The notes beneath the pieces were generated by a model. The model searched no databases and was not told where the DNA came from. It saw nothing but the letters and a program-made list of their open reading frames with translations. 64,000 bases of DNA from Morinoia aosen (lineage: Eukaryota > Arthropoda > Malacostraca > Amphipoda > Talitridae). Location: the NCBI GenBank assembly GCA_030386875.1, contig CM059575.1, forward strand, positions 17,632,293-17,696,292. The letters run 5' to 3'. Shown here in pieces: positions 2,486-58,949 of the stretch (the first letter of the stretch is position 1; each line of letters begins with the position of its first letter). The translations under genes were made by a program, and so were the position numbers.

Positions 2486-3334
2486 TTAACGCAAAGAGTC
2501 TTCATCATCATCTCCTGTAAGAAGATGCTGACCATTGAGGAAAGGATTGGTGCTGACATTGGTAACATGATGGCGTCCCAGGGAACCAAAAGGCCCGCCG
2601 CTGTTGCCAGCAGTGCCCACGAAGGGCCAACCACCTGCTATCGAAGCAGTGGATGCTGCTGTTGTCATGCTAAGATTGTCTGACATTGAAGACGGATGGT
2701 TTCCTCCCGATGAAGCCAAATCTGCGAGCTCTGGTTGAAAATCCCGGCCAAATCCTGAATGATTGTCCCTTCCTAAGCCTGATTGGCCGTCTCTGTCAAA
2801 ACCACTCACACCACTTCCAAGGAAGCTGTCCCGCTGGAAACCTCCTCCACTAGCACCGGAGCTCTCGGTGAAATAGCTGCCACTGGACATTTCTCTGCCG
2901 TAATTAGAGATGTTCTCGCGGCTCACGTTACCGCCAGCTGTCACAGATTCAAAGTTACTTCCTGACTGAGGCCCTCCGGGCACGTTGGCAGACATGGTTG
3001 CTGGTGGAGACGTAATTGAAGATGTGGGAGTGGACGTAATGGACCCTGATGTATTACCTCCAGATGAGTCGGGTCCGCTTGGGGTTAGGGAAGAACCTCC
3101 GAGCTGTCCTGATGACACATGAGGGACCATGCCTGGGAGGGGCACGCCGCCTACAATACCGCTACCGCCACTACCAGTACCGCCACTACCACTACCGCTA
3201 TATGCTCCTCTACCGTAACCCACCCTTCCACCGCCACCTTCCGCGCCACTGCCATTCTGGCGAGTAGAGACGACATTTTTGTTGTTGTTATTGCCGGCAT
3301 AGTATTGGTTCATGCTAGGAGAACTGCGGGGTAG

Positions 3335-3378
<44 letters not shown>

Positions 3379-3517
3379 GCTGTTGTTGCTGCTGCTGTTG
3401 CTGAGAAGGTAATTTTGCGCGGATGCTAACAGGCGGATTCGGGGAGGAATCGCTCTCGGAGCCGGGGGGGCTGAGCGGAGTCGAACTCCCCGACCCTCCC
3501 CCTGAAGTCGGTGCCAC
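2486..3517 (-). CDS. RhoGAP100F: RhoGAP100F/Syd-1, C-terminal polyQ/Gly/Ser exon with stop
   Basis: This is the last coding exon, 343 codons plus TAA (2488-2486), phase 0. The acceptor is gatgccgcgcag before GTG GCA. It begins APTSGGGSGSSTPLSPPGSE, contains a 23-residue polyglutamine run (plus-strand TTG/CTG repeat, about 3334-3402), then long Gly/Ser/Thr-rich segments, a repeated GFDRDGQSGLGRDNHSGFGR motif, and ends NPFLNGQHLLTGDDDEDSLR. No folded domain is visible. Such disordered tails are typical of active-zone scaffolds. The first codon is GTG within the exon and is not a start. Smaller frames on the plus strand and a shifted minus frame over the polyQ tract are shadows. Confidence 0.9.
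3334..3402 (-). repeat. CAA/CAG repeat encoding 23 Gln in the C-terminal exon
   Basis: The tract is mostly pure CAA on the minus strand, with CAG codons concentrated at its 5' end. The pure stretch (plus strand TTG repeated from about 3334) is a candidate for length polymorphism. Confidence 0.93.
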
Positions 3518-5499
3518 CTGCGCGGCATCGTTGTAAGTTAGGAGTTGCTCAAGCGAGCATGGATAGGCTAAGCTTCAAAATAAATTGTTAATACTTGTGG
3601 TTCTAAGCGCAAATTTTTAAAAGTTAATGTGAAATATTAAGGAATACCACATGATGGAATTCCATTACAAATTCATTTAAATTATCAGTGAAGTTGCTGA
3701 GAATACAACGCATTGAGCAGCAGGATTTATAAGGTTGCTTACGAGTAATTTTCAGCTGTCATTTTGGCATTTCTTAGACACGATTTTTGTGTTACCAACG
3801 TTGATGGACAAGTAAATCATTAGCGGTTGAAAGTGTTACAAGGTTTCTACGACGAAGTATAAATAGCTGAAAATTAAAAGGCATACAATAATTTTTAACC
3901 ATGTTAAGTGATTTCTCATAAAAAATAATTGTACTCAGTTTCTCAAACTTAAAAGCCTTAACTCAGCACTGGCTTAATGTAAGAAACTCTTTTTTGCACT
4001 CTTAATAGCGGCAATAATTCAAACTTGAATCGAGCGACTAGCAAAATATTAGTTCTCCTGCGTAAAAAACTACGCTCATGAGACCTGCGACACGCATAAA
4101 TGTTGTGTCCCAGAAATAGAAATTGCACTGATAAAAACGTACACATCGCAAGCGTGATAGTGAACGCTGAAGTTCATCATGCGAAAAGATGCACGAGTAA
4201 TTATGTCCTCGAAAAATTTTCTGTTATCTTCAAATCCATTTCAAGACTCATAATAGAAATAAAAATTTTAGTGATCAGGAATATTTTAGACTGCTGCAGT
4301 TGCAAGTCTAACTGCAGCTGGATGTTATTCAACAGTACATAAAACGCAAATTTAATCTCACATGAAACCTAACCTTTTGAGAATTGATAACGCTTAACTT
4401 TAAATGGTTTCCTACCAGAGCTGTCACCATTTGCGCAGTTTAAACTCATGAAATGTGTATTAACATAGTACATAGAGAAACATATCAAGGAACAATATTG
4501 TTAAATCATGAAGAAATTCTCTTTAGATAAGCACTCTCATGAAAATGATCAAATTAATTCGTTAGCCATGCACGACCATTCAGGTCTCGCCTCACCCATC
4601 AAGTTCTTCATGCATCCCCTAGTTCCTCATATTCATGCTCGTCGGCTGTCGCAAAAAAAACGCCAGACAAATGAAAAATGATGCTCCATAACTATAATAG
4701 TTTTTTTAATTAGTGTCCATTTACAACTGAGAAACGCTGTTCTTGGTCCTGTTGATCGAATACAGATATTATTTAAACTTAGGTAGTCATGGGTTTAGTT
4801 AAAATATGCATTCCGTATAAAAAGAACCCGCAACTGTGTGATCTGGAGACGGGCTGTCGCATCCACGGGCTGGCGAAGAGTAGGGAGCCTGGTAGCTCTG
4901 GTCTCGCCAGGTAGCCTGGATTGATTTTGGATTTTACAGTGAAGTCATCGATTCTTAAAAAATGTTCAATATTTTGTTTAACCCACCAACAGTAACCGCT
5001 TAACTCTTTGAACCTGAAACTTCAATATATCGGTGCGTGACGCGCCAAGGATTGCTTTTCTCCGAAACTCATGAAGCTCAATCCTAAGCAATCAGTTACA
5101 TCGGTGTAGTGGCGCTTACCTTCGACAAACAGTTCATAGGTGAAAATAAAGACTTGAAAATGAATTCACGTCTTACAACTAGGTCTGAGGGAGTCGAATT
5201 TACAATGTTTTGCTAGGAAGCCCAAGGGACGAAATTCTAATACAGTATTGGGGAAATCAGGATTCAAAAATTAAATTTATTTGACCACGGTTTTGATAGA
5301 AGGAAAGTTAGAAAGTATAGATGACTCTTTCTTAAAAGAAGCTGTCGTGCCCCGCGGTCTCTACCTCCTAGCACCGTAGTGACCGGAAAGCACGACATGC
5401 ACAACTCACAACACGTGGCACAACACGCTGAATTTTACACTTCCACCACGAAAGGCAAAACTGGAACCAATTCACGTCAACTTAGACTTGTGCGGATAC
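3518..5499 (-). other. Last intron (2.0 kb)
   Basis: This AT-rich intron lies between the Pro-rich exon and the C-terminal exon, with GTATCC at its start and gccgcgcag at its end. I saw no repeat, transposon relic or RNA gene in it. Confidence 0.6.
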
Positions 5500-6842: not shown

Positions 6843-7075
6843 TTGCGGAGTCGGAGTCGGAGTCGGGAGTCGGAGTCGCCGGAGTCGGATGTTTTAGGGT
6901 GGAGTCGGAGTCGGAGTCGCTTCTCTGAAGTGTGGTGGAGTCGGAGTCGGAGTCGGAGTCGCTATTCTGAAGTGTGATGGAGTCGGAGTCGGAGTCGCTT
7001 TTCCGAATGTGGTGGAGTCGGAGTCGGAGTCGGAGTCGTTCATTCGGATGTGGTAGAGTCGTGGTTGGAGTCGCT
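6843..7075. repeat. GGAGTC subterminal array, left end
   Basis: Runs of the hexamer GGAGTC are broken by spacers such as gcttctctgaagtgtggt and gcttttccgaatgtggt, giving a higher-order unit of roughly 45-50 bp. The array decays toward 7075. It begins inside the terminal inverted repeat of the surrounding element. Confidence 0.9.
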
Positions 7076-8674: not shown

Positions 8675-9302
8675 TACAGGGTGTTTCAGATTCAGAATAA
8701 GAGGCAAAAAATTGCACACCAACTAGAAGATATCCAAATGAAAACTTTTTCTTCTATAAAATTTTCCGAAGAAAGAGACATTGAGTTGGCAGTTTATTGT
8801 TTTAAAGGGTGAAATTTAATGAATAAACTACTCGCAATATTTATTTTGAATTTACGTTGATCGGGAGAAATGTGCTAGTTGCAAGACCTCCTAGATCTTC
8901 TGACATGACTCCACTCGATTTCAATTTTTTGGGACACGTGAAGAGCCTTGTCTATGCTACACCCATTGAGTCTGAGGAAGATCTTGTGGCCAGAATTGCA
9001 GTGGCTGCAGGTGAGATACCTTAAATGCCAGACGTGTTTCCTAATATTCGGCAGCCGTTAAGGCCAACATTCGAAAAGTGCATAGATGTAGGGGGAACAC
9101 ATTTTGAAAAATTTTGTAAAGTAAATTCAGAATCAATATCGCGAGTAATTGTGCCTTTAAATTTCAGCCTTAAAAACAATAAACACCCAATACCTCCCAA
9201 CCCCGATTTTTTGGGGGAGAATTTCATAGGACAAAAAGTGTTTATTTGGCCATTTTCTACTTGATGTGCAATTTTGTACCTCGTGTTCTGAAACACTCAG
9301 TA
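8675..9302 (+). mobile_element. Nested Tc1/mariner-type long-TIR element with transposase remnant
   Basis: The termini are TACAGGGTGTTTCAG and its near-complement CTGAAACACTCAGTA, flanked by TA on both sides (8673-8674 and 9303-9304), the target of the IS630/Tc1/mariner superfamily. The inverted similarity extends inward for about 200 bp. Between 8887 and about 9118 the plus strand encodes RSSDMTPLDFNFLGHVKSLV and YATPIESEEDLVARIAVAAG, the C-terminal DDE segment of this superfamily (family form SPDLTPLDFFLWG), interrupted by a TAA. Most of the transposase is deleted, so the copy is dead. It lies wholly inside the 6838-12818 element and is therefore a later insertion. Confidence 0.75.
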
Positions 9303-12528: not shown

Positions 12529-12790
12529 TGAAGTTGGAGTCACAAAATTGTGAATAGGCGGAGTCGGTGTTGGAGTCGCCAAATTCTGGAGAAATGGAGT
12601 CGGAGTCGGAGTCGGAGTCGCCAAATTCTGAAAAGGTGGAGTCGGAGTCAGAGTCGGAGTCGCCAAATTCTGAAAAGGTGGAGTCGGAGTCGGAGTCGGA
12701 GTCGCCAAATTCTGAAAAGGTGGAGTCGGAGTCGGAGTCGGAGTCGCCAAATTCTGGAAAGGTGGAGTCGGAGTCGGAGTCGGAGTCGCA
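12529..12790. repeat. GGAGTC subterminal array, right end
   Basis: The same hexamer is grouped in threes and fours and separated by the spacer gccaaattctgaaaaggt. The unit is about 42 bp, present in roughly five copies. Because both the hexamer (6 nt) and the 42-nt unit are multiples of three, long open frames on both strands (Ser/Glu, Arg/Ser and Thr/Pro repeats) result. These are artefacts of the repeat. Confidence 0.9.
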
Positions 12791-12818
12791 AATTTATTCC
12801 ACCGACTCCGCAACCCTG

Positions 12819-12826: not shown

Positions 12827-12897
12827 GCATAGATGAAAATTCAAATGGAAAGAATATTTCAACGCTTACTCTGGGAAATATACCTAGTTGCTCTCAC

Positions 12898-13093
12898 CGG
12901 ACTTGGAAGGCCAAAGATCTAGCAGGAACTTCAGTATACTGATGGGCTGATGGAAGTCCATGACTGCCTCCGGCTCGCTCTGCAGCATCAGCACAGGGCC
13001 AAAGCAGATGGCCAGATTCTGAGTGGTCATTTTGTTTCGTTCTGACTGGCTCGAGACCAGCCGTAGGTGATCCATCAGCAGGAAGAGGGTGAT
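12898..13093 (-). CDS. RhoGAP100F: RhoGAP100F/Syd-1, RhoGAP domain exon 3
   Basis: This is a 196-nt exon, phase 0 in and phase 1 out. The acceptor is ttttttttctcag before ATC ACC and the donor is TCCG followed by GTGAGA. It encodes ITLFLLMDHLRLVSSQSERN, then KMTTQNLAICFGPVLMLQSE and ISILKFLLDLWPSKS. N-K-M-T-x-x-N-L-A-I-x-F-G-P is the third diagnostic RhoGAP block, with the conserved asparagines. The catalytic domain ends here. The following intron is 7.2 kb and contains a 5.98 kb transposon-like insertion whose right end lies only 80 bp from this donor. Confidence 0.96.
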
Positions 13094-13848
13094 CTGAGAA
13101 AAAAAATGAACTGTAAGAACCTCATTTATAACTTTAAATAAATTTAAAGATTCTGTATAAGTTTTATGAGAAAAAATTTTTTTAAGGTAATCTGTGGGAA
13201 CTCACGCAAAAAAGGCTTTTTGACGTTGCTCACTGTTTCTCCATTTTGAAATGAGTGTCTTCTTTTTATCCCCCAAAAAAATAAAAAATAAAATTCGTCG
13301 TAACTTCTGCTTGAAAACATTAGAGTCATAAAGAGAATCAGTTCATTCAATTTTCCACTTGCGCTACAATAAAAAATATTCTCATGAAGAGAATGTTGTT
13401 GGAATGTAAATTTAAAATCGCACGCAATATAGAATAAGATTATTCATTAAAAAGTATTCCATAGGGATCAATCGGCGGTTGAATAAGTTATTCCACTTGT
13501 TGAAAAGAATAGAGCTCATTGTTTGACAGTGTTTATTGAGCACCGGCACTTCGCAATTTAGTTATAACAGCGAAATTTGCACGGTAAGCGTAAAACTATT
13601 TGTCCAACATATCAAGAGAACCAGAGTGGCAGGCGTTCATATACTCACGTCTGATGGAAGAAACTGCGTAACCTACTCAAAGCTGTCCAGTCACAATAGG
13701 AAAAATATAGAGATAGATCGCTGGAATTGAAAAATACGTGCTTGATGAGCGTAGTATGATTCCCAAAACTGGATGGATTTGATGCGCACCATAGTCTTAG
13801 TAACTATCATAACGTGTTTTAGAGAAAAGGGACACAGTAAGGTGGCAC

Positions 13849-14009
13849 CTTGTTGATCTTTGGAAGGCAGTCTAAAATGGAGAACATGAGCTTGGCGTTG
13901 CCCTCAGGGTCGTCGGGCAGCATGACAGTGAGGGCATCCACGAGCATCTGGTACAGGCACTTGGTGAACAGCGGCTCGGGCAGTTCACGCAGGTAGTCCT
14001 TTAGGATCC
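13849..14009 (-). CDS. RhoGAP100F: RhoGAP100F/Syd-1, RhoGAP domain exon 2
   Basis: This is a 161-nt exon, phase 1 in and phase 0 out. The acceptor is gttgagcag before GG ATC and the donor is AACAAG followed by GTGCCA. It encodes ILKDYLRELPEPLFTKCLYQ, then MLVDALTVMLPDDPEGNAKL and MFSILDCLPKINK. LKDYLRELPEPL is the signature second block of RhoGAP domains, including the conserved lysine. The exon is too short to stand out as an open frame, because neighbouring intron stops cut it, and it was found by reading for the motif. Phase joins both neighbours exactly. Confidence 0.95.
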
Positions 14010-15337
14010 CTGCTCAACAAATTGTGATTAGTTTCAAATCGACTGATGAGCATCAATTGGAATTAAATTATTTGATAAAACTGCAATTGATAAATGATTG
14101 CTAAATGGTAATGATATGGATCAAACACCAAGGGTCAAAATTGAAAACACGAAACTGAAAAGACGAGGGTGAAATTTCCTACATAAAGGTGACTCGGCAT
14201 GTCAGCCAAGAGTTGGTAGTTGCTTGCAGCTATATGTAAATTTGGGGTTGATAATTATCAAGGAATAGATAGATCCATTGATATATCAAAATGATAATTC
14301 AACAAAATTTTGAGCATGTCATCGTATCATCAGGTAGTTTTAAGTCCATCAGCTCTCCGCGAATCAAAAAGTCCCGGGTCTGTCTTACAGCATGCGGGAA
14401 CGAAAGGCAAGACTTTGTGCAAAAATTGTATTTTCCACATAAACCTAACGAAGCTTGCCTCCAGAGGGACGCAATCGAATTTCGTCCAAACATTGTCTTA
14501 ATAACAAAGTTGGCAGTGCGATCACGTCATTCACTGCCAAAAATTTGCAACAATGCGTACAGAAGCCATGTACAAATGAATGCTAGAAATTTGCATAGAA
14601 CTAATAAAAATTATTTTTCCAGGCCTAATTCATACCAGTACTTAGAAAACAATAAAGCCTACTAAACGAACCTGGTCTTAGTCAACGGTACTACTACAAT
14701 CCAGTTTTATTTAGATTTTTAAATGAGATATTTCAACATGACCTCGTGAAAACGAGAACCAATTTCTTGCAAGGAGGGTGGGACGCATTTACTTCTGTCA
14801 ATCACGGCCTCCAAAATTTACTCTTGATTCATTTCATTGATTGGACGAAACAATGTCCAAAATAAATGAATAAATGGAACGCAAGGGAAAAAGTTATAGG
14901 ATGGATGCTCCAGAGCCAGCTCTTGCATCAGTATGATTCGTGATGAAGTTCATAGAGACAGTGCCTAAAAATTTTGAAACATTTGTGAGTGAAAAGAAAT
15001 TGAACTTAGTAGGCATAGCTGTGAAATGAACAAACTTTTTTGTGCAAATTTTCAAGAAGATATTTTTCCAATCTGTTCCTTACTGGACGATTGCTTACGC
15101 AAAATCTTGACACAAATGCACGTTGCACATTCACAATCTACTAATTTTGGGTGTATTATATTCCATACAGTACTTTTTCAGTTACATTAAACCTTATTTA
15201 TGAAATGAAAATAGAAGTGGTCGAATGATTAATTTTTTGAAAGCGACGTAATTGGAGAATTCTACCAGAATTTGAACTAATTTTATTGAAAATTGTTCAC
15301 GTTAGAGGAAAAAGAAATGGGCACCCTAAGGCAACCA

Positions 15338-15505
15338 GTTAAATCAAGTCAATTAAATCGATTTAATTATCAATTTAAATCAATTAAATCAATTTAAATT
15401 CAAATGATGTTAAATCAAAAATGGCATTGAATGGCAGTTTAATGGCAATTAAATCAATTAAATAAAAAGTGTTAAATGGTGTTAAATCAATTCAAATCAA
15501 CGACG
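15338..15505. repeat. TTAAAT-type AT-rich simple repeat
   Basis: The stretch is dominated by degenerate copies of TTAAATCAA and its complement. It begins right where the 43-bp donor minisatellite ends, so about 370 bp of this intron's 5' part is repeat. Confidence 0.8.
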
Positions 15506-15509
15506 CTAT

Positions 15510-15722
15510 CAACACCACTCACCAGTGACAACGTTGATATCAGCTATGTCGTCAACGACGTTTACCCGTGAAAACGTTTGTATCAGGGGCATTATGAACT
15601 CCACTCACTCGTGATGACGCTGATGTCAAGGACATCACGAACTCTACTCACTCGTGACAACGTGGGTATCAGGGACAGTATGAACTCCACTCACCCGTGA
15701 TAACGTTGATATCAGGGACATT
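15510..15722 (-). repeat. 43-bp minisatellite repeating a 5' splice site
   Basis: Five tandem copies occur at an exact 43-bp step. Putative donor GTs fall at 15694, 15651, 15608, 15565 and 15522 on the minus strand. Four read GTGAGT or GTGAGTGG and one reads GTAAAC. Each is preceded by a version of the exon ending (ATCAACGTTATCACGG and variants) and most are followed by GGAGTTC. The first copy straddles the real end of RhoGAP exon 1. The others lie in the intron. Confidence 0.93.
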
Positions 15723-15935
15723 ATCAGCACTGAGATCGACGAGTCTTGGGTTCCTCTCGAAAGCGTCTCTAAGAAGCCGTTTCTTGGTAGCTGAGCCACA
15801 GAGCCGATATAGACCGATGATATCGAGGCCGCGCCGCTCCACCTCTGCCACACAGCGTGCGATCACCAGCGGTACCGCCGACCCACCGGACTCCCGTTGA
15901 GAGACCGTCTCCAGGTCTACTCCGAACACTGCACT
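15695..15935 (-). CDS. RhoGAP100F: RhoGAP100F/Syd-1, RhoGAP domain exon 1 (arginine finger)
   Basis: This is a 241-nt exon, phase 0 in and phase 1 out. The acceptor is gacctgtctccag before AGT GCA and the donor is CACGG followed by GTGAGT. It encodes the first third of the RhoGAP domain: VFGVDLETV, then AVPLVIARCVAEVERRGLDI and IGLYRLCGSATKKRLLRDAF. GLYRLCG aligns with the family's G-(I/L)-(Y/F)-R-x-x-G loop, so the catalytic arginine finger is present. By family rule the protein could stimulate GTP hydrolysis on a Rho/Rac GTPase. Oddly, the exon end and its donor are repeated in tandem into the intron at an exact 43-bp period. Reading through meets a stop at 15671-15669. Confidence 0.96.
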
Positions 15936-17353
15936 CTGGAGACAGGTCGAGAAGCGTGAGACATACATTTGAAATACTCTATTAACGTTCGACGTTAAAA
16001 AATTCAGTGGACGTGACGTGCACTTGGAAACAGTGATCAGGTAGAATAAAAAGACATTCTTTCTTCACTGTTTGGTCTAGGAAGGCACTGTGGGAACGTG
16101 ACAAATAGAAAAGTAGCAGAAATATGGGAAAAACGTAACAGCGCACCTGTTTCTCAATGCTGAATTGTGTTCAATAAGACGAGTGACAAGTATGCTACGT
16201 ACATTTTACCAAAAGCCCATGAACGGAATGAATAACCGATTATTATTACTCTTTTAGGAAAGAGACAGATACGATTGAGGAAAGTTTGGGGTAAGATACG
16301 CTTTAATAAAGCGTCAATGAGGAACAGTTTTTATAAATTCCATATTAAAAATTATCCAAACATGAATGGAAAGTGAAAAAAGAAGTATTAAACAAAATCG
16401 ATAGTAAATAACAAAAAAAAGTTCTTAAATTGAAAAGAAAATATTCGATTGAAACGTGTCATTTGAGAATATAAATCAATGATCGAATTGAGTTATTTTT
16501 CAATTAAGTCTCAACATAAGATCAGCATATGAGCCGAGCTCCAAGGCTGCTTATAAGTATCTTCTTTTCAAGATACTGCTTCTCTCAATTTAGCGCGAGG
16601 CCATCATGCTGACGAGGTGAGCAACCTTGATCATTCAGGTTTCAAATCCAGGAGGAAAAAATCGGCAAGTGGACGGACAAAGAAAATTCTTGTATCATTA
16701 AACGTGAAGAACAGCATTCAAAATAAAAAAATTCTACATGGAAAATAGTGAGTATGAAAAGCACTGCATTTGCAGCGATAATTACATGGTCAAACTTTAT
16801 CAACACAACTTAGTTTAGCAAACATTTCATAAAGCATTCCTAGCTTGCCTCTGACAACATCAGAAAAAAATGAATGATAGTTAATAAGCAAATCAGAAAA
16901 TTCGGTCGTGAATTCCATTTCTAATCATACAAAGTTAAATTAAATTTGCCTTTCATTACGGACTTTGTGATATAACTCACATACAACAAAACAAATGTAA
17001 ATCAGTGAATGAACGGTGCGAATCAGGAAATGGTAGCTCCAGAGCGCGGGCTGCACATAATAAGTGCTCAAGAGAGACAAGACGACAGTGGGAATATAGA
17101 TTGTTGAAATGTTTTAAAATCTGCAACACTAAATTGAATCCTGTTTGCATTTTCACATTTTTATTAGTGAGTCTTTAACGAAAAAAGCTAAAGCTGTTGT
17201 TGAAGATGTTTACAGTTTTCAACTTCACTACATTTTGTCAAGCTTACTTCCCCCAAAATTATTCTCAACGTAATAAAACTGATTGCAACGAAGTTCAAGA
17301 GCAAAAACATGCTAAATAGAAACGAATTCAAAATGCGAATGGTACGGACGTAC

Positions 17354-17799
17354 TTTTCTGAGTTTGGGTGTCCTGATGAAGGCGGTGACAGGGGGCGTGT
17401 AGCTCAGCTTGAGGTAGAGGGTGCCACGGGGCTCGACCTTGAGGGCGAGCTGATGGAGAGGCGCCTCCTTCAGGAGAGAGACAAGGTGCACGGAGCCCTT
17501 GTAGCAGAGCTTGTGCCGGAACTGAGGGTCCCACGAATATATGAGGAAGTCCAGCTCTTTGTTGTTGATGAGGTCCAAATCAAAGGTTTCGTCCCAGTCG
17601 AAGTTGTGGTCCCCAGTGCGCACGACCGTGCGCGCCTTGTGCACGCGGTCGCACTCCAGCACGCAGTACAGGTCGCGGAACTCGGCCCGGCCTGCCGCCT
17701 TCAGGCCGCGGCCCGCCAGCAGGTGCACCCATAGGATGCCCGACACGCCCTCCGTCACGCCCCCTATGCTCCCCACGCCGACCTTGTACTTCAGGAACT
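17354..17799 (-). CDS. RhoGAP100F: RhoGAP100F/Syd-1, C2 domain exon
   Basis: This is a 446-nt exon, phase 1 in and phase 0 out. The acceptor is gttgtctcgcag before AG TTC and the donor is GAAAA followed by GTACGT. It opens FLKYKVGVGSIGGVTEGVSG and then carries a whole C2 domain, about exon residues 20-135: ILWVHLLAGRGLKA, the strand FRDLYCVLECD, then DHNFDWDETFDLDLINNKEL, DFLIYSWDPQFRHKLCYKGS and GTLYLKLSYTPP. The usual loop-1 acidic residues look incomplete, although WDP keeps one Asp. I infer a calcium-independent C2 that serves membrane or protein contact. The last residues (VTAFIRTPKLRK) lead into the GAP domain. An antisense open frame over this exon is a shadow of its GC-rich codons. 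Confidence 0.95.
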
Positions 17800-18475
17800 C
17801 TGCGAGACAACCACCACAACTTCTTGTAACTTCACTGCTATTGCAGAACTTGCTGGGTCATGTAGAACAATTTTAATTTCTTCTATACAATTGGAACCAG
17901 AACACCTATGCTCTAATTCATCGTATTTTTTTGAGAAATAAAATTACTTACGAGCTTAAAATATTCATCAAGATAATGATTTTCAGAGAAACGTAGGTTT
18001 GTCTAAAATCCATAAAATCTAAAGAAAATGTACGCATATACTACATGGAAGTTTCAGAATGGATTTTTCAATCATAGACTGCATTTTTGTCAGAAAAATA
18101 TTACCTCACATCATGGAAATACTACAAATCACTAAATCCAAGAAAACTTTCTAGCGGAATAACTTTTGAGTATAAGGTATGCGTAAATACTTATTCGTGC
18201 TAAGCTGCGCAAAAAATGTAAAATTAAAGCCAGCTTAGTACTTAGTTGAACAATACGACAAAATTACTCCCACTGGCACTGATATAATTTGCCCAACTGA
18301 TGTACATCAATTGCAAAAACTTGCCCCTTTCTTCCTTAAACAATAGCCATTCTGGCAGATCGTCCATCTGTAATACATGCTGTTCCTCAAGGGTATTTAC
18401 CATCAAGTTTTTTATTCTCTTTGCTTTGAAGCCAGATGAAATTAACGTATTTTACCTCGAAATGCTATCACTCAC

Positions 18476-28760: not shown

Positions 28761-29991
28761 TGTGTGGGGTGAGACATCTGCACTATCGGTTGCTCAGGGA
28801 CTCAGTAACAGAAATAAAGTAAATCAACAGCATCAAATTTGCATACCCATAAAATACAGCAGTGTTTCGTAAAACAATCAAATGTTACTGGTGAGAAACA
28901 ATAATACCACGGATTGACACACAAACATCACTAAGACACTAATGGTACAAGTGAGGAATTTTGAAATAGGGACAATTTAAAGCATGCTTAGGGTGACGGC
29001 GTTATAGGTCCTCAGTGTCAGAACATTTAGACCAACTAATTACTAGTGTAAGGTGAAACAAAACATCAAGGAAACGTGTCACAAAGTTCCGCTCACAGGT
29101 GCATAAAGCAATTGATTAAGAAATACTACTACAATATATAGTAACACCGATACAGCCAAACATCAATTACAAAGAACAAACTTCAACTCACAGTACAGCA
29201 CAGTAAGAACAGACACGGTATCAAGGCCATATCAGTAGCAATAACGTCTAATTTAAAACTCAAAATGTTTCCCATTTCATTGCTCTGTATGACACAAAGT
29301 TTTCAATAATTCAGAGTAGATAAGTTAGTTATGAAAAGCAAAGAACGTTCACACAAAATATTAGACTAGAGCATTGACGATGCGTAGCGATTTATCGCAA
29401 ACGAGAACTGACGATGCGTTCTGATGCTTCATTAGAAGAATCAAGTAAGCCGTTTAATTCTTTAAAATGAAGCTCATACAGACAGGTGGAACAAATTTCA
29501 ACTGCGACCGAAAATTACATTGGTTAGAACTAATTCACGATCCTTTAACTTTAAAACAAGTTAACATAATTTTTCTTTGTAGGAGTAAATGAGTTAGCAG
29601 CGACTGAAATTGACACAAGGTGAGAACGATGTGCTCCTCGACAAGTAAATACAAAACCTCTTACACAAGCTTCTGTCGAGTTACTCTCAGCGGATCATGC
29701 GATAGAAGTTCTCGAAAATATGGTAGAACGAAGCTAAAAATATGTGTTGAAGAGAAGTATGAATGACAGCAAGCAAGCAAACGCTTCAAATTTATTTGTT
29801 TTCATTTCGTGACTGCACAAATAAAGAAAATAAACAGAATTAAAGGCAATGGAATTAAAATTGAAGTAGCCATAATGGTTCATTTTCGTACTTCAAAGAC
29901 TCGGCCAAACATCTGGTGATGCAAAGTGAAGGCCGCAGCATCGCAAAATTTTACACAAGTAAACACCCTTAACGGCCTCCAACGACTTAAT

Positions 29992-30325
29992 GGCCACCAC
30001 CGCCTGCACCGCTGTAGCCACTCAGTGGCCACCACCGCCTGCACCGCTGCAGCCACTCAGTGACCACCACCGCCTGCACCGCTGCAGCCACTCAGTGGCC
30101 ACCACCGCCTGCACCGCTGCAGCCACTCAGTGGCCACCACCGCCTGCACCGTTGCAGCCACTCAGTGGCCACCACCGCCTGCACCGTTGCAGCCACTCAG
30201 TGGCCACCACCGCCTGCACCGCTGCAGCCACTCAGTGGCCACCATCGCCTGCACCGCTGCAGCCACTCAGTGGCCACCACCGCCTGCACCGCTGCAGCCA
30301 CTCAGTGGCCACCACCGCCTGCACC
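29992..30325. repeat. 35-bp minisatellite, about 9.5 copies
   Basis: The unit begins GGCCACCACCGCCTGCACCG and ends CTGCAGCCACTCAGT. Starts run from 29992 to 30307, exactly nine 35-bp steps, with only point changes. Each junction carries GCCACTCAGTGGC, a short inverted repeat. Since 35 is not a multiple of three and no frame has a stop, all three plus frames stay open as Ala/Thr/Pro/His/Leu repeats. I do not regard these as a gene. Confidence 0.95.
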
Positions 30326-34970: not shown

Positions 34971-35341
34971 TTACACGGGCTTAGAAGAAGGGCAAGTAAC
35001 AGCACTAGGAGAGGGCTTTTCCGTTTGGTTTTCATGAGTGAGAGTTGCTTGCTGTACTTGGGGAGGTTCGGCTTCACTGTTCGAGGCAGCAGCGAATGTA
35101 ACTCGACGAGTATGGAAATTCCTAGGAAGAGTCTGGGAAGACAGAGAGTAAAGGTAGGCCGATGATCCGTCGGAAGAAGAGGTGGGGTGGAAGGCGTGAG
35201 GAGAGGCGGAGCTGCCTCGCGCATTGTGTGAAAATTCGTTCGGTGAAACAGAAGGAGAGGTCCGGGGGGACGTCTTGCCCAGACTCTCACTTTGACAAAC
35301 AATCGATGTATTCTTTACAGCAATGTCTCGGACGCCCTTAC
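34971..35341 (-). CDS. RhoGAP100F: RhoGAP100F/Syd-1, candidate alternative terminal extension
   Basis: If the donor at 35341 is not used, the Gln-rich exon's frame stays open for 123 further codons to a TAA at 34973-34971. The extension reads like real protein: KTSPRTSPSVSPNEFSHNAR has SP phosphosite spacing and FHTRRVTFAAASNSEAEPP follows. An AATAAA lies about 160 nt past the stop. This suggests a composite exon: spliced, it joins the linker, C2 and RhoGAP exons; unspliced and polyadenylated, it gives a protein of about 1286 residues from the first placed exon, with PDZ and coiled coil but no C2 or RhoGAP. The alternative is a chance open frame in compositionally biased DNA, or an unseen later donor. 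A weaker donor, CAAA followed by GTGAGA near 35290, also has phase 1. Confidence 0.5.
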
Positions 35342-36535
35342 CCTGATGAAGAGGAAAGGACGTACGATAATCAATGGGCGAATCTCGCGGAGAATGTACC
35401 ACTACTTGAGGCAGAGGTGCGGTCTGTGGAGGAAACGAGGAATACATACTCGAATCACCTACTGGAAAGCGCCCAGCAAATGGATTTGTCACTTGAAGTG
35501 TATTTCCTCCCAAAAGCACAGCCGAACGAGTCGTATCTGTCGTCAGCAACTGCGCGTAAGAGTCAAACTTGGCGTAAGGGGCGCTGAATTCTTGGGTGGC
35601 ATGGATAGAGAACGAAGACTGAGCGTTCAGTTCGGTGTTATACTGCGTGAGTTCGGAAGGTAAGAGATCACTCACGGCTCCCGTTTGTTCACTCCATTTA
35701 ACGTAAGCGTCTGATTTAGCTCTTCTGTGCTTGAGGAGAGACTGTGGGAGTGTGTGCTGCTGCAGCACCAGTGGCACCTCTTCGTCCCGAGGGTGGAAGC
35801 CGGGCTCAGCTCCCCCGGAACTGAGGCACGCCAACTCTCGCGAGTGCTGAGATGGTTCAGTCACCCAGGAGTTGGAGGGTCCCAAATCCGATGGCTTGAA
35901 CTCTTGACCCTCAGCTGCCCCTCTTTCCAGCGCCTTAGGTGCGCGGGTCTGCAGGCCGTCATGTGGAGCTTCGTCTTCTGTTGCGCTGCTCGTGTTCACG
36001 TCGCTGCTGTCGCTGCTGTTGCGCGGCCGTACTTGAATGCTTCTTTTGAGCGACCCTCTAAGAGGCTTATCTCTGTTCCCAGTCCGTTTATCCTGCAGCT
36101 GCTTCTGCTGCCGCTGTTGTTGTTGTTGCTGCTGCTGCTGTTGTTGTTGTATATGTTGGTCCAACTGTTGGGTCAAGAAATCGCTAGATAAGTCTGGAAA
36201 AGACCCCGTTGCAAGGATTCCTATTCCAGATGTTTCTTCTTTTGAATGATGCCCAAGACTTTTCTGCTGATAAAAGATATGTTGATCCAATTGTTGTGCT
36301 AGTAAATCAGAAGGTGGTTGTTGTTCCTGTTGCTGCTGCTCCTGCAGCAGTTGCATGTGTTTCTCGAGAAGGATTTGCTGTCTGCTTTGCTTGAGCTTCT
36401 GCTTCAAGAATCGTTTCTGCTGAAGATGGTACTCCAGTTCGCACTGACGGGATGCAGGCACGACGAGCTCGCCAATATCCTTGGCAATTTCGCCAGCTTC
36501 GACGTCAACACTGTAGACACTCTTGGCTTTCTTGC
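35342..36535 (-). CDS. RhoGAP100F: RhoGAP100F/Syd-1, Gln-rich coiled-coil exon
   Basis: This exon is 1194 nt (398 codons), phase 1 in and out. The acceptor is tatttag before GC AAG, completing a Gly codon with the PDZ exon. The donor is CAGG followed by GTAAGG. It opens with KKAKSVYSVDVEAGEIAKDI and GELVVPASRQCELEYHLQQK, then a Lys/Gln/Leu helical region likely to form a coiled coil, a related motif pair (LLAQQLDQHI and FLTQQLDQHI) and a run of 12 Gln. A Ser-rich region with SSDSSDVNTSSATEDEAP follows. The donor gives the phase needed by the next exon (21820). The same frame also continues open past the donor, treated separately as an alternative 3' end. Confidence 0.86.
36119..36163 (-). repeat. 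CAG/CAA repeat encoding polyQ in the coiled-coil exon
   Basis: The plus strand shows TTG and CTG triplets in a run, read on the minus strand as 12 glutamines between QLDQHI and RQQKQL. Mixed CAG and CAA codons should slow slippage. Confidence 0.9.
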
Positions 36536-37839
36536 CTAAATAAAAGGTCATGTTAGAAAATTATTCACGAAATAGTGTGAATAAATAAACGTCATATTCG
36601 GATTATTTCACAAGCTCTGATCCCTTTCATCTACACATTACTGAACGCACGAGAATGTCGAAGTTAGTACAATAAATTGACTCATTTGTCACCATGGCAA
36701 CAACCAAACCAAATATATGTGCGAACTTGGAAGCTGTCAATGAACTCAACACTCTGCCTCTAGGAACATGAGACAACTCTACTCGACGAATGCTGCACAT
36801 CCTAGCACTCCCAAAAAAGTTCCCCAAATTAGCAAAGCCACCAATTACACTTCTAAAGAACTTTTTAAAATATCTATTACCAAATGCCGTCAGTGAACAC
36901 GAGCTCAAAACTTCAATACACGAAGCTGGAAATACGCTCACAAAATTTCTGTAAGGCATCGTCGCGAGACGGATCACCAGCCCCGGCCTTATTCTATTGC
37001 TCAATTGCAGCGTGAACGAACTTAGCTTACTGCTAATTAAATTTGAATTACTTGTGATCATGATATTGTCAGCCCAAGGTGACTGTATCAAAGTTATACC
37101 TTAAATTAAAAAAATGAAATATGGGATGTGATAAAGAAATTCTAACACCTAAAGACAGAAGAAGTTAAATTCCTAAATTTCTCAGTGATTAATGTTCATT
37201 CTTTCATCTATTATGAATTTAATATTTAAATATATTTATCCAAAAAACATAAAACCAACACGTATAGAAAATAACAAAAGGCGAATGTAGAAAAAATGTA
37301 TAATAGCCTAAATTGAGAAGTCAAAATTCTTATGCAGACTAAATTTCATTTTCACTGGAACACTGACCGAAAACCAAAAATCGTAAAGTGCACATAAAAC
37401 ACTGATATGTTATGTTATAAAGTAGTAAAATTACCAAATAACAAACCCTTAAATAGAACAAAATACTAAGCTATACCTCAATAAACAGTATTTACAGAAC
37501 TGAATTGTTTCGCGCATAAGCTATATCTGTACAATAAAAAGCATCACCAACTGGTCAAAACAATCTAAACAAAATTCTTCCCACGTTCACGCAGTACAGT
37601 ACAGCGTCTTTAAGATAAATCCGTTTAAATAAAAAACCTTGGTGATTTTGATCAACATAAAAGTTGGCAACACTGAAGTGAATCGGTTATACTTAGTTAT
37701 TTATGAAACCGAAAACTAACATTTAGAATCCGTTGCGCAATGAAATAGCCGAAGCGTTCAGCTATCTGTGAACATCGTCGCGCGGGCCAAAGCCCAACCT
37801 TTATTGCAAAAACCCTCCAGTATCCTAGGCAAACGAGTT

Positions 37840-38710
37840 ACGACGTCTGGGGCGTTTTGAAGAATCTGACCAAGATTACAGAGCCCTCATACGTCAAAAG
37901 AAGATAAAATTCACAAGCCTCGCTTTCTTGACGGCATCAAAAGAAGCGTTAAGGCTAATCCAACAGTGTCTTTATCGACATTGTCTAAGAAAAGGCTCGT
38001 CAGCATCATGGCAATTCACAGAGCAAAGACCTTGGCCTAACTATAGGAAAAATCTCCTGACTAATAAGATGAAAGAAATTCTCTAGGAGAGATGCAAAAA
38101 AGTTTTGAACTGAGTGAAGACCAAAGGGTTGAGCTCAAGTGCTTTTCTGAAAAGAATTTTTACAGTTGATAGGGCTTGTAACAAACGTAACGATCGCTGG
38201 ATTGTCTCTTCGAGCACTGACGTTCAACCCACGATGAACAAGAAGAAACCAGCTTGCGTCATAGCCCTCTGCCTGGTTTCAATCGAGGATGATGTCTTCA
38301 CCCACTTCTTCACCGGCAACTAAAAAGTGAATGCCGCCTCCCACTGCAACATCTTACGAATGGAAATCATTCTATGGATAAAGGTCCAGGATTCAAATAA
38401 GAAGTTCTTGTTCCAACAGAACTCGTCTTCCTCCCACACGGTGAGCAAAACCGTTGACTTGTTCCAGAGGTCCAGAGAAATTTGGCCTTCCAACTCGCCT
38501 GCCCTGAACCCATTGGACAACTATTTTTGGTCACAGATTGTAGCCAAAGCTTGTGTAAAGCCCCTCAACAGCGTTACAGCAAGAAGAATCACAACAGGCC
38601 ATGGAGTCCATGGAAACGGCAAAAGTTATTCGCGCTCTATCCAGCTTTCGAAAGCGAGTAGAAGCCGTCGTCAAAGCTGAAGGTGGTCATTTCGAACGAA
38701 ACTTTTGTTC
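37840..38710 (+). pseudogene. Dead Tc1/mariner-superfamily transposase
   Basis: Plus-strand fragments in shifting frames reconstruct the family order. They are a helix-turn-helix part (GIKRSVKANPTVSLSTLSKK), then KRIFTVDRACNKRNDRWIVS with the first catalytic Asp near 38166, FLFQQNSSSSHTVSK near 38410, NSPALNPLDNYFWSQI near 38510, and the C-terminal RVEAVVKAEGGHFE near 38655. The second catalytic residue, Asp in FQQDSAPAH of active relatives, is Asn here, and there are several frameshifts and stops. It is therefore inactive. It lies in the intron between the PDZ and Gln-rich exons, antisense to the host gene. I could not delimit its terminal inverted repeats. Confidence 0.82.
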
Positions 38711-42809: not shown

Positions 42810-42861
42810 AGCCCTTCCCAGTCAACCTACAATATCCTTTCCCTCTCCCTCCCTCCCTCAC

Positions 42862-44335
42862 CTCGATCCCTGCGATGACCACTCGGCATCTCCGGAGCGC
42901 TGACCGCACCGTCACTCTCGTCCTCGCTGCCGGCAAGGCTGTGGCGACCTCCAGACCCCAGTCGAAGTCCCGGACCTAAGGAAGATCTTGCGCTCCTGCC
43001 CACTCCCACGCCACTCCTTAGCATGAGAGGGTCTCCTCCGCCTCTGTGGAGGCGCTGGCGAGGGAGGCTGTTACTTCGCGAAGAGGCGGAGCGTGGTCTC
43101 GCGGCTAAAGGTCTCGGAGCCAAAACTTCTGTGTCACTGGCGTAGTCTACGGACCTCGTGCGCTGACGCAGGGCGCTGAGGCGCCTCATGGCCTCTTGGT
43201 ATCTGTCGAGCGTAGCACCTTCTCCCGAGCCGTATGCCTGTTGGAGAGGCGCCAGGGACGCCTCTTGCCACGCCTTATAGCGCCTCGCAGCGCTCACGCC
43301 GCTGCTACCTTCATAGTCGCTCAAAGCTTCCCTCTCCGTCGCAGGAAGTCTCTGATCACTCAGGGTCCTCGCCAGTCTTGGCCGTCCTGCTGTGCTGCGC
43401 CCAAGCGTCCCACCGTAGCCTAGACGAGAGTCTAGAGACTGGGGACCTGGAGGCTTTGGAGGTCCATAAAATGAATGTATTCTCTCAGCGAGAGATTCTA
43501 GTGTTTTGGGATATGAACGGTCGTATTGGTAGAAGTTTAAGTGATGCCTGGTACGAGGCTGCTCGGTGATGACTGGAGGTGGGGGATGGTAGAGGTGATC
43601 GGGGCCGGGTGGGACGCCGTAGCCACCACGGCTGCCACCTGGTCCTGGAAGACGGCCGACGCCCCCTGGCCCTCCTCTGCTGGGGTAGCCTGGGTGCGGA
43701 GGAGGCCCCATCCCCATGGGGACGCCTGGAAGAGGACCAAATTTCATACCGGGGTAATGAGGAGGAAGAGGAGGAGGACCTTGAGGAGGTGGCCCACTTC
43801 GGTTGTAGGATGCGAGAGGTTCCTCGTACCTCAGCACAGACATATCGGGAGGTCGGTAGCGAGGTAGTGTGCTGAACCTCTCGTGAGAAGGCGGCATGCC
43901 GTGGGGCGGAGGTGGTCTTCCCATCGCTCCAAGCCTCAGCTGGTCACCGTTACTGTTGGAATCATCCAAGGGATCTTCCTCATAATCTTTCTTGAGCACA
44001 ACGACGGGGGGCGGTTTGGGCTCGAGGCGGTTGGGCTGGTGAAGCGGCTGGCGGACGCCACGACGGGACCTCGTGGTCAGCAGCAGCCGGCGAGGAATAG
44101 ACATGATAATGACCACATCATCTAAGCTCATCCTCGTCACATCCACCAGATTTACGGCGAGCACTTCATCGCCAACTCTGAGACAACCGCTGTTATAGAC
44201 CGGCGACTCGAGCGCTATGCGTGAAATGAAAACTCCCTCTTGTCTCTCGGCTCCATTACCCTCTCTGATGTACAGACCCAGCGTCTGGCCCGGCCTCTTC
44301 ACTATCTCCACCAGCTGCACGCTGAACTTGCTCGT
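42862..44335 (-). CDS. RhoGAP100F: RhoGAP100F/Syd-1, PDZ domain exon
   Basis: This is a long exon of 1474 nt (491 codons plus one base), phase 0 in and phase 1 out. The acceptor is gttgtgcag before ACG AGC and the donor is CGAG followed by GTGAGG. Residues 5-87 form one PDZ domain: VQLVEIVKRPGQTLGLYIRE carries the carboxylate-binding loop as TLGLYI, and GCLRVGDEVLAVNLVDVTRM and SLDDVVIIMSIPRR follow. In Drosophila and C. elegans this domain links Syd-1 to presynaptic cell-surface partners such as neurexin. The remainder is Pro/Gly-rich (HPGYPSRGGPGGVGRLPGPG), followed by Arg/Ser-rich stretches with possible phosphosites (ARTLSDQR, RQRTRSVDYASDTE, SSRSNSLPRQ). A GT microsatellite lies in the intron shortly after the donor. 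Confidence 0.96.
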
Positions 44336-45266
44336 CTGCACAACGCATTGCTGCTTTATACATGATTCACTGAAGGAAATACAGCAACGACTGATTCGCT
44401 CAAATAATTTAAAGTGAGAAAATGAAACAGTGTTACGTGAAGTGAATTTTCTTCCTATATAGTTTTAAACTTAGTCATCTAATGGATGTAGATTTACGGG
44501 ATGAACTTCCATTCGTACTCTTTGGAATAGGTCTGGGGTCGAATACAGCTAAAAGAGACTAATAAATTATAAGAGCCAATAGAAAACTCATGAAATGCTA
44601 CCAAGACCACATACGGCCTTTAACCAGAAATGTTACACTCCTTCTGACGAAAATACAGCGTTTCTAAAGAAGTAAAATTTTTAACTTGTCGGAGAGAAAG
44701 TCACGAAGGTCACAAAGCGCGGTTGTTAACCCTCCAGGTTACAAATATAGTTTATATAAATATATTTTGCTTTACACCAATTTTAAATGAACTCATTTAG
44801 AAATTTATCTAAATGTTGAATGATGAAAATAGGTTGTAGGTGTACTCTGCAAGTATCACAAGGAGCAAAGTAGCATTTATTGAGACAAAATCAAACGGAG
44901 AAAAAGAGCCAAGGTTTTTCCGAAATTATCGTAACAACTAGAGGAAAAGAAAATTTTTCTTATATGTAGCCAAAAATAGTAATAACTCAGCTGTGAACAA
45001 GCCGTACAAGAAGTATTATAACGCATCTTTTTTTTTGTTTAAATCCTTTTTATCGAAAATAAAAGACCTTGCTGCAATTCAGCTAGTTTTTTTTTAGGTT
45101 TACATAACCACCGAACGATATCGATCATACCAACTAACTTTTCAATAAACGGAAGACCCAATAGAAATATTGTCATGTATAAATAGATCGTCGTTAAATT
45201 GACCAATGAGAGCAATAAATACCGGTCGTACCAACGTAAGAAGCACCATGGCAAGAAGAACAATAC

Positions 45267-55837: not shown

Positions 55838-56915
55838 GGTGATCTAAGCATGTCAGGCGGTGTAATGTGACAGGTGATCTCAGCGTGTCAGGCGGTGTAA
55901 TGGGACAGGTGATCTCAGCGTGTCAGGTGGTGTAATGGAACAGGTGATCTCAGCGTGTCAGGCGGTGTAATGTAACAGGTGATCTCAGCGTGTCAGGCGG
56001 TGTAATGTGACAGGTGATCTCAGCGCGTCAGGTGGTGTAATGTGACAGGTGATCTCAGCGTGTCAGGTGGTGTAATGGAACAGGTGATCTCAGCGTGTCA
56101 GGAGGTGTAATGTGACAGGTGATCTCAGCGTGTCAGGTGGTGTAATGGGACAGGTGATCTCAGCGTGTCAGGTGGTGTAATGGAACAGGTGATCTCAGCG
56201 TGTCAGGCGGTGTAATGTGACAGGGGATCTCAGCGTGTCAGGCGGTGTAATGTGACAGGTGATCTCAGCGTGTCAGGCGGTGTAATGTAACAGGTGATCT
56301 CAGCCTGTCAGGCGGTGTAATGTGACAGGTGATCTCAGCGTGTCAGGCGGTGTAATATGACAGGTGATCTCAGCCTGTCAGGCGGTGTAATGTGACAGGT
56401 GATCTCAGCCTGTCAGGCGGTGTAATGTAACAGGTGATCTCAGCGTGTCAGGCGGTGTAATGTGACAGGTGATCTCAGCGTGTCAGGGGATATAATGGAA
56501 CAGGTGATCTCAGCGTGTCAGGCGGTGTAATGTGACAGGTGATCTCAGCCTGTCAGGTGGTGTAATGTGACAGGTGATCTCAGCGTGTCAGGTGGTGTAA
56601 TATGACAGGTGATCTCAGCGTGTCAGGCGGTGTAATGTGACAGGTGATCTCAGCGTGTCAGGCGGTGTAATATGACAGGTGATCTCAGCGTGTCAGGCGG
56701 TGTAATGTGACAGGTGATCTCAGCGTGTCAGGTGGTGTAATGTGACAGGTGATCTCAGCGTGTCAGGCGGTGTAATGTGACAGGTGATCTCAGCGTGTCA
56801 GGCGGTGTAATGTGACAGGTGATCTCAGCGTGTCAGGTGGTGTAATGTGACAGGTGATCTCAGCGTGTCAGGCGGTGTAATGTGACAGGTAATCTCAGCC
56901 TATCAGGCAAACTGC
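55838..56915. repeat. 35-bp satellite, 31 copies with no length change
   Basis: The unit begins GGTGATCTCAGCGTGTCAGG and ends CGGTGTAATGTGACA. First and last unit starts (55838 and 56888) differ by exactly 30 x 35 bp. Variation is by substitution only, mainly C/T in CAGG(C/T)GG, a GTGA/GGGA/GGAA/GTAA tetramer, and GCGTGTC/GCCTGTC. Nearly every junction contains CAGGTG, an E-box. A diverged relative, GGGTGATCTAAGCC, occurs alone near 57435. Confidence 0.97.
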
Positions 56916-58949
56916 ATCAAAGTTGAGACGGATGAGACGTTGGACAGTCAGCAAGTTGATACATGGTACATTTCAAGTTGGTGCATAAAGAAGAATTAAG
57001 TGATACGCTTAAATAAGTTGAGATAGCTGAAAAATTGATAAACATGTAAAAAAACATGTCTAAGAGTAGAGCTTTCAAATATTGTCCGAATGAGAAAAAT
57101 CAAAGATTAGCTTTAAATACTCGTAGATCCTTTGTCACATTGCTTTGGAATTAACTCTTGAAATTTTGAGCTATTCAGCATCGTTCCCAGCTGAATGGTT
57201 AAACTTCCTTATGTATTATGAAAAATATCTTTGCCACAAGAAAACGTCCAAAGTTATTTATTCACTTGTAAGTAAATTCAGATTTAATTTGTCAATTTTC
57301 CAAAAAAAGGTACTCATCGTTGTAAATAAAATGCTTTCGATGTGTAATGTTAAGTATTAAGTAACTCTCTCATATCGAGCTTGCACGGAGCCTAATGCTC
57401 AACTTAACCAATTAGAAGCCTTAGAGCCACTGCTGGGGTGATCTAAGCCACTGTAAGATGATGCAAGGCGAAGCTCAGAGGAAGATCCTTGTGTAGAAGT
57501 AAAAAGCGAGTGATGATTATAAGCCTGTAAGAATTACGTCTGTAATTCTTTATGCTAAAAATAGTACACTTTTCAAGCTACAAAAGAAAATTACACTTCT
57601 AAAGTGAAATTCACGAACTGACTTCAGTTTTGAACATCGACACATATTTGAAAATATTTAATATGAGCTCTGCCATTTCAAATCACCCGACCCACTTCAT
57701 TATCTCAACCCCTTTCCCATAGACTTCTTGCAACCCAGCTAGGGATGACATTGTAGCAGGAGAGAAGCAAGTCCACGACCAGCTTCGCCGCTACTGGATG
57801 CGACCGTTGCAGCCAGTTTAACACTAGATAAATTGCGAAATGCTTCAAAATTATCTGAGCAGCTTCAGCCTATTTTATGAAGAGTTCAATAGGATCTATC
57901 GGCTGAAAACCTAATTACTAAAATGACTAAATTTTTTAACTGTACATTAAAAATGAGAATCGTAATGAAGAAAACATAATACATCATCGAACATGGTTTT
58001 CTGTACGCTGTACAAATCGCTGATAAACAGGCAGATAATCCCAATCTAGTTCACGCATGGCAAGTATTCCATTAGTGACGATTTCATTGGCATAGAATAG
58101 AATAAGGTGGCAAGGATGAGCCGAGAGGCCCATTTTCGAGTTGCTAGCAAAGTCCCATGCTCGTAGACATCAATCACGCACAGGCATGAGTACGTGAAAA
58201 TAGTGGAGAAATTGCCGTCACATTCACAGCCATCAGTATTCATGCACAAGCGCCTATATATTCGTCTTAGCACAAGAGAGCAGCGTTTCACAAATGTGTG
58301 GTTCTATGATTTCCCAGTTTTTTTAATTGTCAGTTACATTTGAGCCTTCACAAGTTCTTTTCTTTTTAAATCGATCTTCAGATGTGACACCACCAAATTA
58401 CTCACCATGAATCGGCAAATTAGAAAGAAAATAGTTTTACCGCAAACTGAAAAGCATGGATAAACAGCGGAAAAACATGGATAAAATTAATGAAGTGAAA
58501 GAAGCGTTTACTGTTGAAAAACTATTATCAGCTACGTTCAAATACGCAAAGCGGGGTAAAGGGAATGGTAAAAATTCTAAAGTTTGTATCAAAAATACAC
58601 GGACTGTGATACTGTGTGATGAATTTTTCAGATATCTTAGGAATTCCGGTCCAGTTTGCACTTTAGAAACGGGAATTTTTCACGCGGTAGTGGTCAAGAT
58701 GTTTTTTTGGAGGTCTTCACTGCTTCAGAAGAGACGATTTTCTCTGGTATTTGGGTACAGATTCTGCCGTTATCAAGTGGCAAAAAGTTTAGGTTCACAT
58801 GCAAGGGCTCTAAAATGTTTTATTTTTATATTTTTTTAAATACTGGTTATTTCTGGTGCGGACATACCGTTGGTGTCGAAAAGTTATTCTGCGCTCATAT
58901 AATAGAAGTCAATACGATGTTAAGTAGTTTGGATTAGTTGACATAGCAG

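Follow-up and report, generated by a model that had tools for sequence, protein, structure and literature searches.

How did the boundary between an exon and its intron come to be repeated in tandem, splice donor included, and do the additional donors take any part in splicing? The question is raised by positions 15724-15510 on the minus strand of the window (the whole stretch of 64,000 nucleotides analysed), where five 43-bp units follow one another in exact register and without indels. Each unit opens with 30 nt corresponding to the last bases of an exon and continues with 13 nt corresponding to the first bases of the intron, as set out here in the direction of transcription:

15682-15724, minus strand: unit 0, borne by the exon (30 nt of exon and 13 nt of intron), with the donor taken as genuine, CGG/GTGAGTGG, at 15694
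15639-15681, minus strand: unit 1, intronic, 37 of 43 bases identical to unit 0, with donor copy CGA/GTGAGTAG at 15651 (A at -1)
15596-15638, minus strand: unit 2, intronic, 36 of 43 identical to unit 0, with donor copy CGA/GTGAGTGG at 15608 (A at -1)
15553-15595, minus strand: unit 3, intronic, 33 of 43 identical to unit 0, with donor copy CGG/GTAAACGT at 15565 (hexamer altered at three of six positions)
15510-15552, minus strand: unit 4, intronic, 33 of 43 identical to unit 0, with donor copy CTG/GTGAGTGG at 15522

Across 15510-15724 the identity is 0.71 at a lag of 43 and 0.73 at a lag of 86, whereas the highest value reached by 2000 single-base shuffles at any lag from 5 to 99 was 0.44. 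The initial annotation had described a 43-bp unit with GT dinucleotides at 15694, 15651, 15608, 15565 and 15522, and both the period and all five positions are confirmed; its statement that the donor had been copied five times counts the genuine site at 15694 among the five, hence the extra copies number four. Pairs of units share 26-37 of their 43 bases. The similarity reaches approximately 30 nt into the exon and, at its opposite end, stops near 15510-15500. A BLAST comparison found no comparable copy outside the array within the 64-kb window, where matches extended over only 9-16 bases, and a single 32-base match (75%, E 1.6) lies inside the array but on the opposite strand. AT-rich degenerate repeats resembling TTTAATTGATTTAA, at 15338-15500, adjoin the downstream end of the array.

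The domains encoded around the array identify its host gene. Matches to PDZ, C2_SYDE and RhoGAP occur in this order on one strand, and the gene is therefore classified, on its domain content, as a PDZ-bearing orthologue of syd-1/SYDE. The relevant features are as follows:

42830-44464, minus strand: open frame with a PDZ domain (PF00595, 1.7e-10)
17354-17857, minus strand: C2_SYDE exon, upstream in the same gene; 17857 marks where the open frame ends and does not imply an exon limit; the frame joins the next exon as LRK-SAVFGV
15695-15935, minus strand: syd-1 exon of 241 nt with the first part of the RhoGAP domain, acceptor CTCCAG/AGTGCA; phase taken from the joined exons, limits predicted
14010-15694, minus strand: intron of 1685 nt, acceptor GAGCAG/GGATCC, phase 1 as predicted from the joined frame
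13849-14009, minus strand: next RhoGAP exon, encoding the Rho-interface Lys and Arg; 3' limit predicted from AAG/GTGCCA

The C2_SYDE match (PF25336, 1.8e-24) covers 17315-17857, and the RhoGAP match (PF00620, 4.5e-24) falls on the joined pair of exons that flank the array-bearing intron, with a further piece of the domain at 12887-13201 (1e-10). The best relatives in the PDB, where 39 distinct sequences match at 0.001, are ARHGAP12, the chimaerins, ARHGAP15, MYO9B and MgcRacGAP. The PDZ frame probably belongs to the same gene, judging from its strand, its order and the PDZ-C2-RhoGAP layout. In lower organisms the PDZ domain is reported to lie N-terminal of the C2 domain, and vertebrate proteins are reported to be without it (PMC8918327). 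With C2_SYDE and PDZ exons upstream on the same strand, the array-bearing exon is the first exon of the RhoGAP domain and not, contrary to what had been proposed, exon 1 of the gene. Also on the minus strand, 2489-3574 and 34974-36560 are long open frames with low-complexity sequence and runs of polyglutamine; they have no Pfam match at 0.01 and may be disordered regions of this syd-1 gene.

Use of the donor at 15694 gives a continuous reading frame, in which ATC ACG G is joined to GG ATC CTA AAG beyond the acceptor ending at 14010, and the upstream join, LRK-SAVFGV, is likewise in frame. From any downstream donor copy, the frame reads ITGEWSSYCP and then stops at a TGA at 15671-15669 (minus strand), the position at which the initial annotation had placed an in-frame stop. 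Use of donor 15522 would add 172 nt that include this stop. The stop in the first copy precedes the rest of the RhoGAP domain, which bears out the earlier expectation that use of a downstream donor would truncate it. In the joined stretch, Lys84 and Arg88 lie 40 and 44 residues past the arginine finger R44, offsets equal to those among Arg436, Lys476 and Arg480 of SYDE1, for which residue roles are named in PMC8918327. A truncated product would thus be predicted to keep the arginine finger (residue 44) and to lose Lys84 and Arg88. The earlier remark that copy number alters the frame, 43 not being a multiple of three, turns out to have little consequence, as the array is intronic when 15694 is used and the stop comes first otherwise. 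Retention of three units (129 nt) does restore the downstream frame, but only after two in-frame stops.

We consider it likely, at a probability of about 0.8, that the array is a degenerate mirage, that is, a minisatellite formed from an exon-intron boundary, whose four intronic copies are removed with the intron and drift largely neutrally. The array would have begun when a 43-bp segment, covering the 3' end of the syd-1 RhoGAP exon together with the adjoining 5' splice site, was duplicated in tandem, with slippage or a microhomology event as the presumed cause of the first duplication. The four downstream copies would then have come to sit in the intron, to be spliced out from 15694 to 14010, and would have drifted under little or no selection. 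The exon part of the unit encodes DINVITG, which in alignments is close to DINIITG of chimaerin and to DIHVITG and DIHVVTG of ARHGAP12 and ARHGAP15; because this is conserved RhoGAP sequence, the exon is the likely source of the array units. A TGATA motif spans the beginning of unit 0 (15726) and recurs across the end of unit 4 (15511), at a distance of exactly five units; four further occurrences lie elsewhere in the array. As a trace of the origin of the array by microhomology, this motif is suggestive only.

The divergence of the copies can be compared with this history. Compared with the exon copy, units 1-4 show 6, 7, 10 and 10 differences in 43 bases (14-23%), fewer than are found among the copies themselves. 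Of the 43 columns, 42 have the same base in the majority consensus of all five units as in the exon copy, and the remaining column (-7) is tied. When unit 0 is left out, the consensus of the four intronic copies departs from the exon copy at three of 43 columns, in none of which another base has a majority, and this difference counts against the preferred reading. Summed over the four intronic copies, the differences among them come to 86, compared with 85.2 (sd 4.0) for a simulated star centred on the exon copy. Five columns share a derived base, where chance gives a mean of 3.8 (P of at least five = 0.32). The array is unhomogenised, and its copies have diverged in star-like fashion from the exon copy.

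Donor strength was scored in two ways, with a matrix built on human donor frequencies and by pairing to the 5' end of U1; since the matrix is human and may not suit this host, the ranking is approximate. From 15694 through to 15522, the matrix gives 6.21, 3.06, 3.06, 1.53 and 6.10 bits, and the U1 pairing gives -12.6, -7.3, -6.8, -7.6 and -10.3 kcal/mol. The intron contains 99 GTs, of which 15694 ranks first by both measures, which supports the silent reading, and 15522 ranks second by both. The other three copies occupy places three to five by U1 pairing; the matrix puts 15651 and 15608 in third and fourth place and 15565 in seventh, so the two measures disagree on 15565. Two of these results count against silent copies: the five donors of the array are the five best of the 99 GTs by U1 pairing, and 15522 nearly equals the true site. 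It is the only serious competitor of the true donor. Since the choice among competing donors is reported to depend on SR proteins (PMC5585400), strength alone cannot predict the outcome.

GT is kept in all four extra copies and GTGAGT in three, and with the genuine site the hexamer is exactly GTGAGT in four of five, in agreement with the initial annotation. Its description of the sites as identical does not hold, for G has become A at -1 in 15651 and 15608, and the hexamer of 15565 reads GTAAAC; their strengths differ. No significant constraint was detected on the donor hexamers of the copies (three of 24 cells changed, against 30 of 148 elsewhere; Fisher p 0.58) or on the nine-base donor sites (6 of 36, against 27 of 136; p 0.81). 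The divergence outside the hexamer predicts 1.07 intact extra hexamers, compared with the three observed (P of at least three = 0.057). This excess is a weak sign of constraint, and it counts against the silent reading.

RNA structure was considered as a reason for the true site to win and was rejected. When the five units were folded, none did significantly better than its own shuffles (z 0.01, 0.88, 0.08, -0.94 and 0.51). A local model of a longer RNA has all five donors mostly paired, with the true donor least accessible: its hexamer has an unpaired probability of 0.0013, against 0.0398, 0.0215, 0.0118 and 0.0142 for the copies in order. In this model, accessibility gives the silent reading no help and would count against it, even though naked-RNA models tell little about a protein-coated transcript. 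As conceivable acceptors for a mini-exon within it, the array contains four YAG sites (with only C or T accepted before AG), preceded by 8, 11, 8 and 7 pyrimidines in 18 bases.

Arrays of this type are already known. The amphioxus "mirages" are described as minisatellite-like tandem duplications across exon-intron boundaries in Adh3 and the globins BflGb6 and BflGb9; they may involve the 5' or the 3' boundary, and have units of 10-72 bp at Adh3 and 150-160 bp in the globins (PMC3087553). AG/GT signals are reported in many, though not all, of their repeats, and their lengths are reported to be unstable (PMC3087553). The syd-1 array resembles them in that its unit spans an exon-intron boundary (30 + 13 nt in five units, with the exon limit predicted from the frame) and in that its copies keep splice signals, and in structure it is a mirage. 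Unlike BflGb6, its units are strongly diverged and do not show homogenisation, a feature that, like length instability, is not strictly defining. According to the authors, Adh3 data and globin RT-PCR suggest regular splicing without interference from the mirages (PMC3087553), and by analogy this would support silent copies in syd-1.

Other comparable systems are known. The minisatellite of human IFI6 (6-16, G1P3) is described, in the title of its report, as giving multiple splice donor sites (Turri, Cuin and Porter, 1995), and the units of syd-1 likewise carry multiple donors. Two downstream units of IFI6 are said to be used, giving three mRNA species (PMC4526556), whereas the copies in syd-1 are putative donors whose use would meet a stop. 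In human duplicated genes, tandem repeats at exon-intron boundaries are reported as a possible source of novel introns (PMC2812944). Tandem duplications are also reported to have formed introns in fission yeast and vertebrates, with SPOG_01682 of fission yeast (24-bp unit), ATP2A1 and potato RdRp among the cases (PMC4974935). As in those cases, tandem copies of an exon segment with its splice signal have come to lie in an intron. In syd-1, by contrast, the intron presumably existed beforehand, and only its donor end was multiplied, with no new acceptor proposed. Expansion of a repeat across an exon boundary had been called uncommon in the initial annotation; to judge from these papers (PMC3087553, PMC2812944 and those on IFI6), it is a recognised phenomenon.

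The main alternative to silent copies is that 15522, perhaps along with others, is used in part of the transcripts as a poison donor, so that the added stop leads to degradation of the transcript or to a truncated SYD-1 with the arginine finger but without the rest of the RhoGAP domain. The second rank of 15522, the intact hexamers in three of four copies and the low modelled accessibility of the true site all favour this alternative, as does the reported use of downstream units as donors in IFI6 (PMC4526556). Against it stand the hexamers, which as a class show no significant constraint, the weakening of two copies at -1 and the regular splicing reported for amphioxus mirages (PMC3087553). 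On balance we regard a poison donor as unlikely. In a more specific version, the last copy, 15522, would have been maintained at high strength to act as a regulated poison donor, intron-proximal in position, by which the level of catalytic SYD-1 at synapses is adjusted, and the copies in between would have decayed to weak spacers; this we find quite improbable.

It is also conceivable that the minisatellite is still active, with a copy number that varies between individuals and with unequal exchange able to rewrite the end of the exon. Amphioxus mirages offer a precedent, since they are reported to be unstable in length, with BflGb6 haplotypes of six and three units and somatic instability at Adh3 (PMC3087553). 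The units of BflGb6, however, are 81-100% identical and evolve in concert (PMC3087553), whereas those of syd-1 have the low pairwise identity and star-like divergence described above, with neighbours that are not homogenised, and we judge continuing activity very improbable. Least credible of all, and very nearly dismissed, is the idea that the resemblance is accidental or that the assembler stuttered in the copies. Nothing found here supports it, and the only precedent is the BflGb6 array, which is described as aberrantly assembled in the draft genome of amphioxus (PMC3087553). The identity at a lag of 43 lies far beyond that of the shuffles. Every intronic copy departs from the exon copy at 6-10 positions in its own pattern, which a stutter of identical sequence would not yield, and this makes misassembly unlikely. 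The preferred reading thus remains that of a degenerate mirage with copies that are most likely silent.

Either way, the five donors of this one intron are graded in strength and form a natural series for the effects of strength and position on donor choice. Silent copies would show how the splicing machinery can pass over an intron-proximal site of nearly equal strength; if they are used, a gene of synapse assembly would contain a poison-splice switch.

The surroundings of the array contain repeats of other kinds. In total, 13 merged arrays with a period of at least 10 cover 2561 bases, or 4.0% of the window, with the syd-1 array taken as 15510-15724. Open frames at 8827-9021 and 38324-38677 (both plus strand) resemble the ends of mariner/Tc1-type transposases, and neither has a Pfam match at 0.01. 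The minisatellites at 6846-7073 and 12532-12794 have much the same GGAGTC-rich unit of approximately 41-42 bp, ending in TTTTCTGAA.. and AAATTCTGAA.., respectively, and a dispersed minisatellite family thus seems to be represented at two places in a 6-kb interval close to the 3' part of syd-1. A large 35-bp minisatellite at 55838-56908 has 30.6 copies with 94% matches, and the region around it shows a strong skew of G over C (0.36 at 56001-57000). Another 35-bp minisatellite, at 29991-30325, has 9.6 copies with 97% matches; it is far less diverged than the syd-1 donor array, and is therefore a better candidate for length variation.
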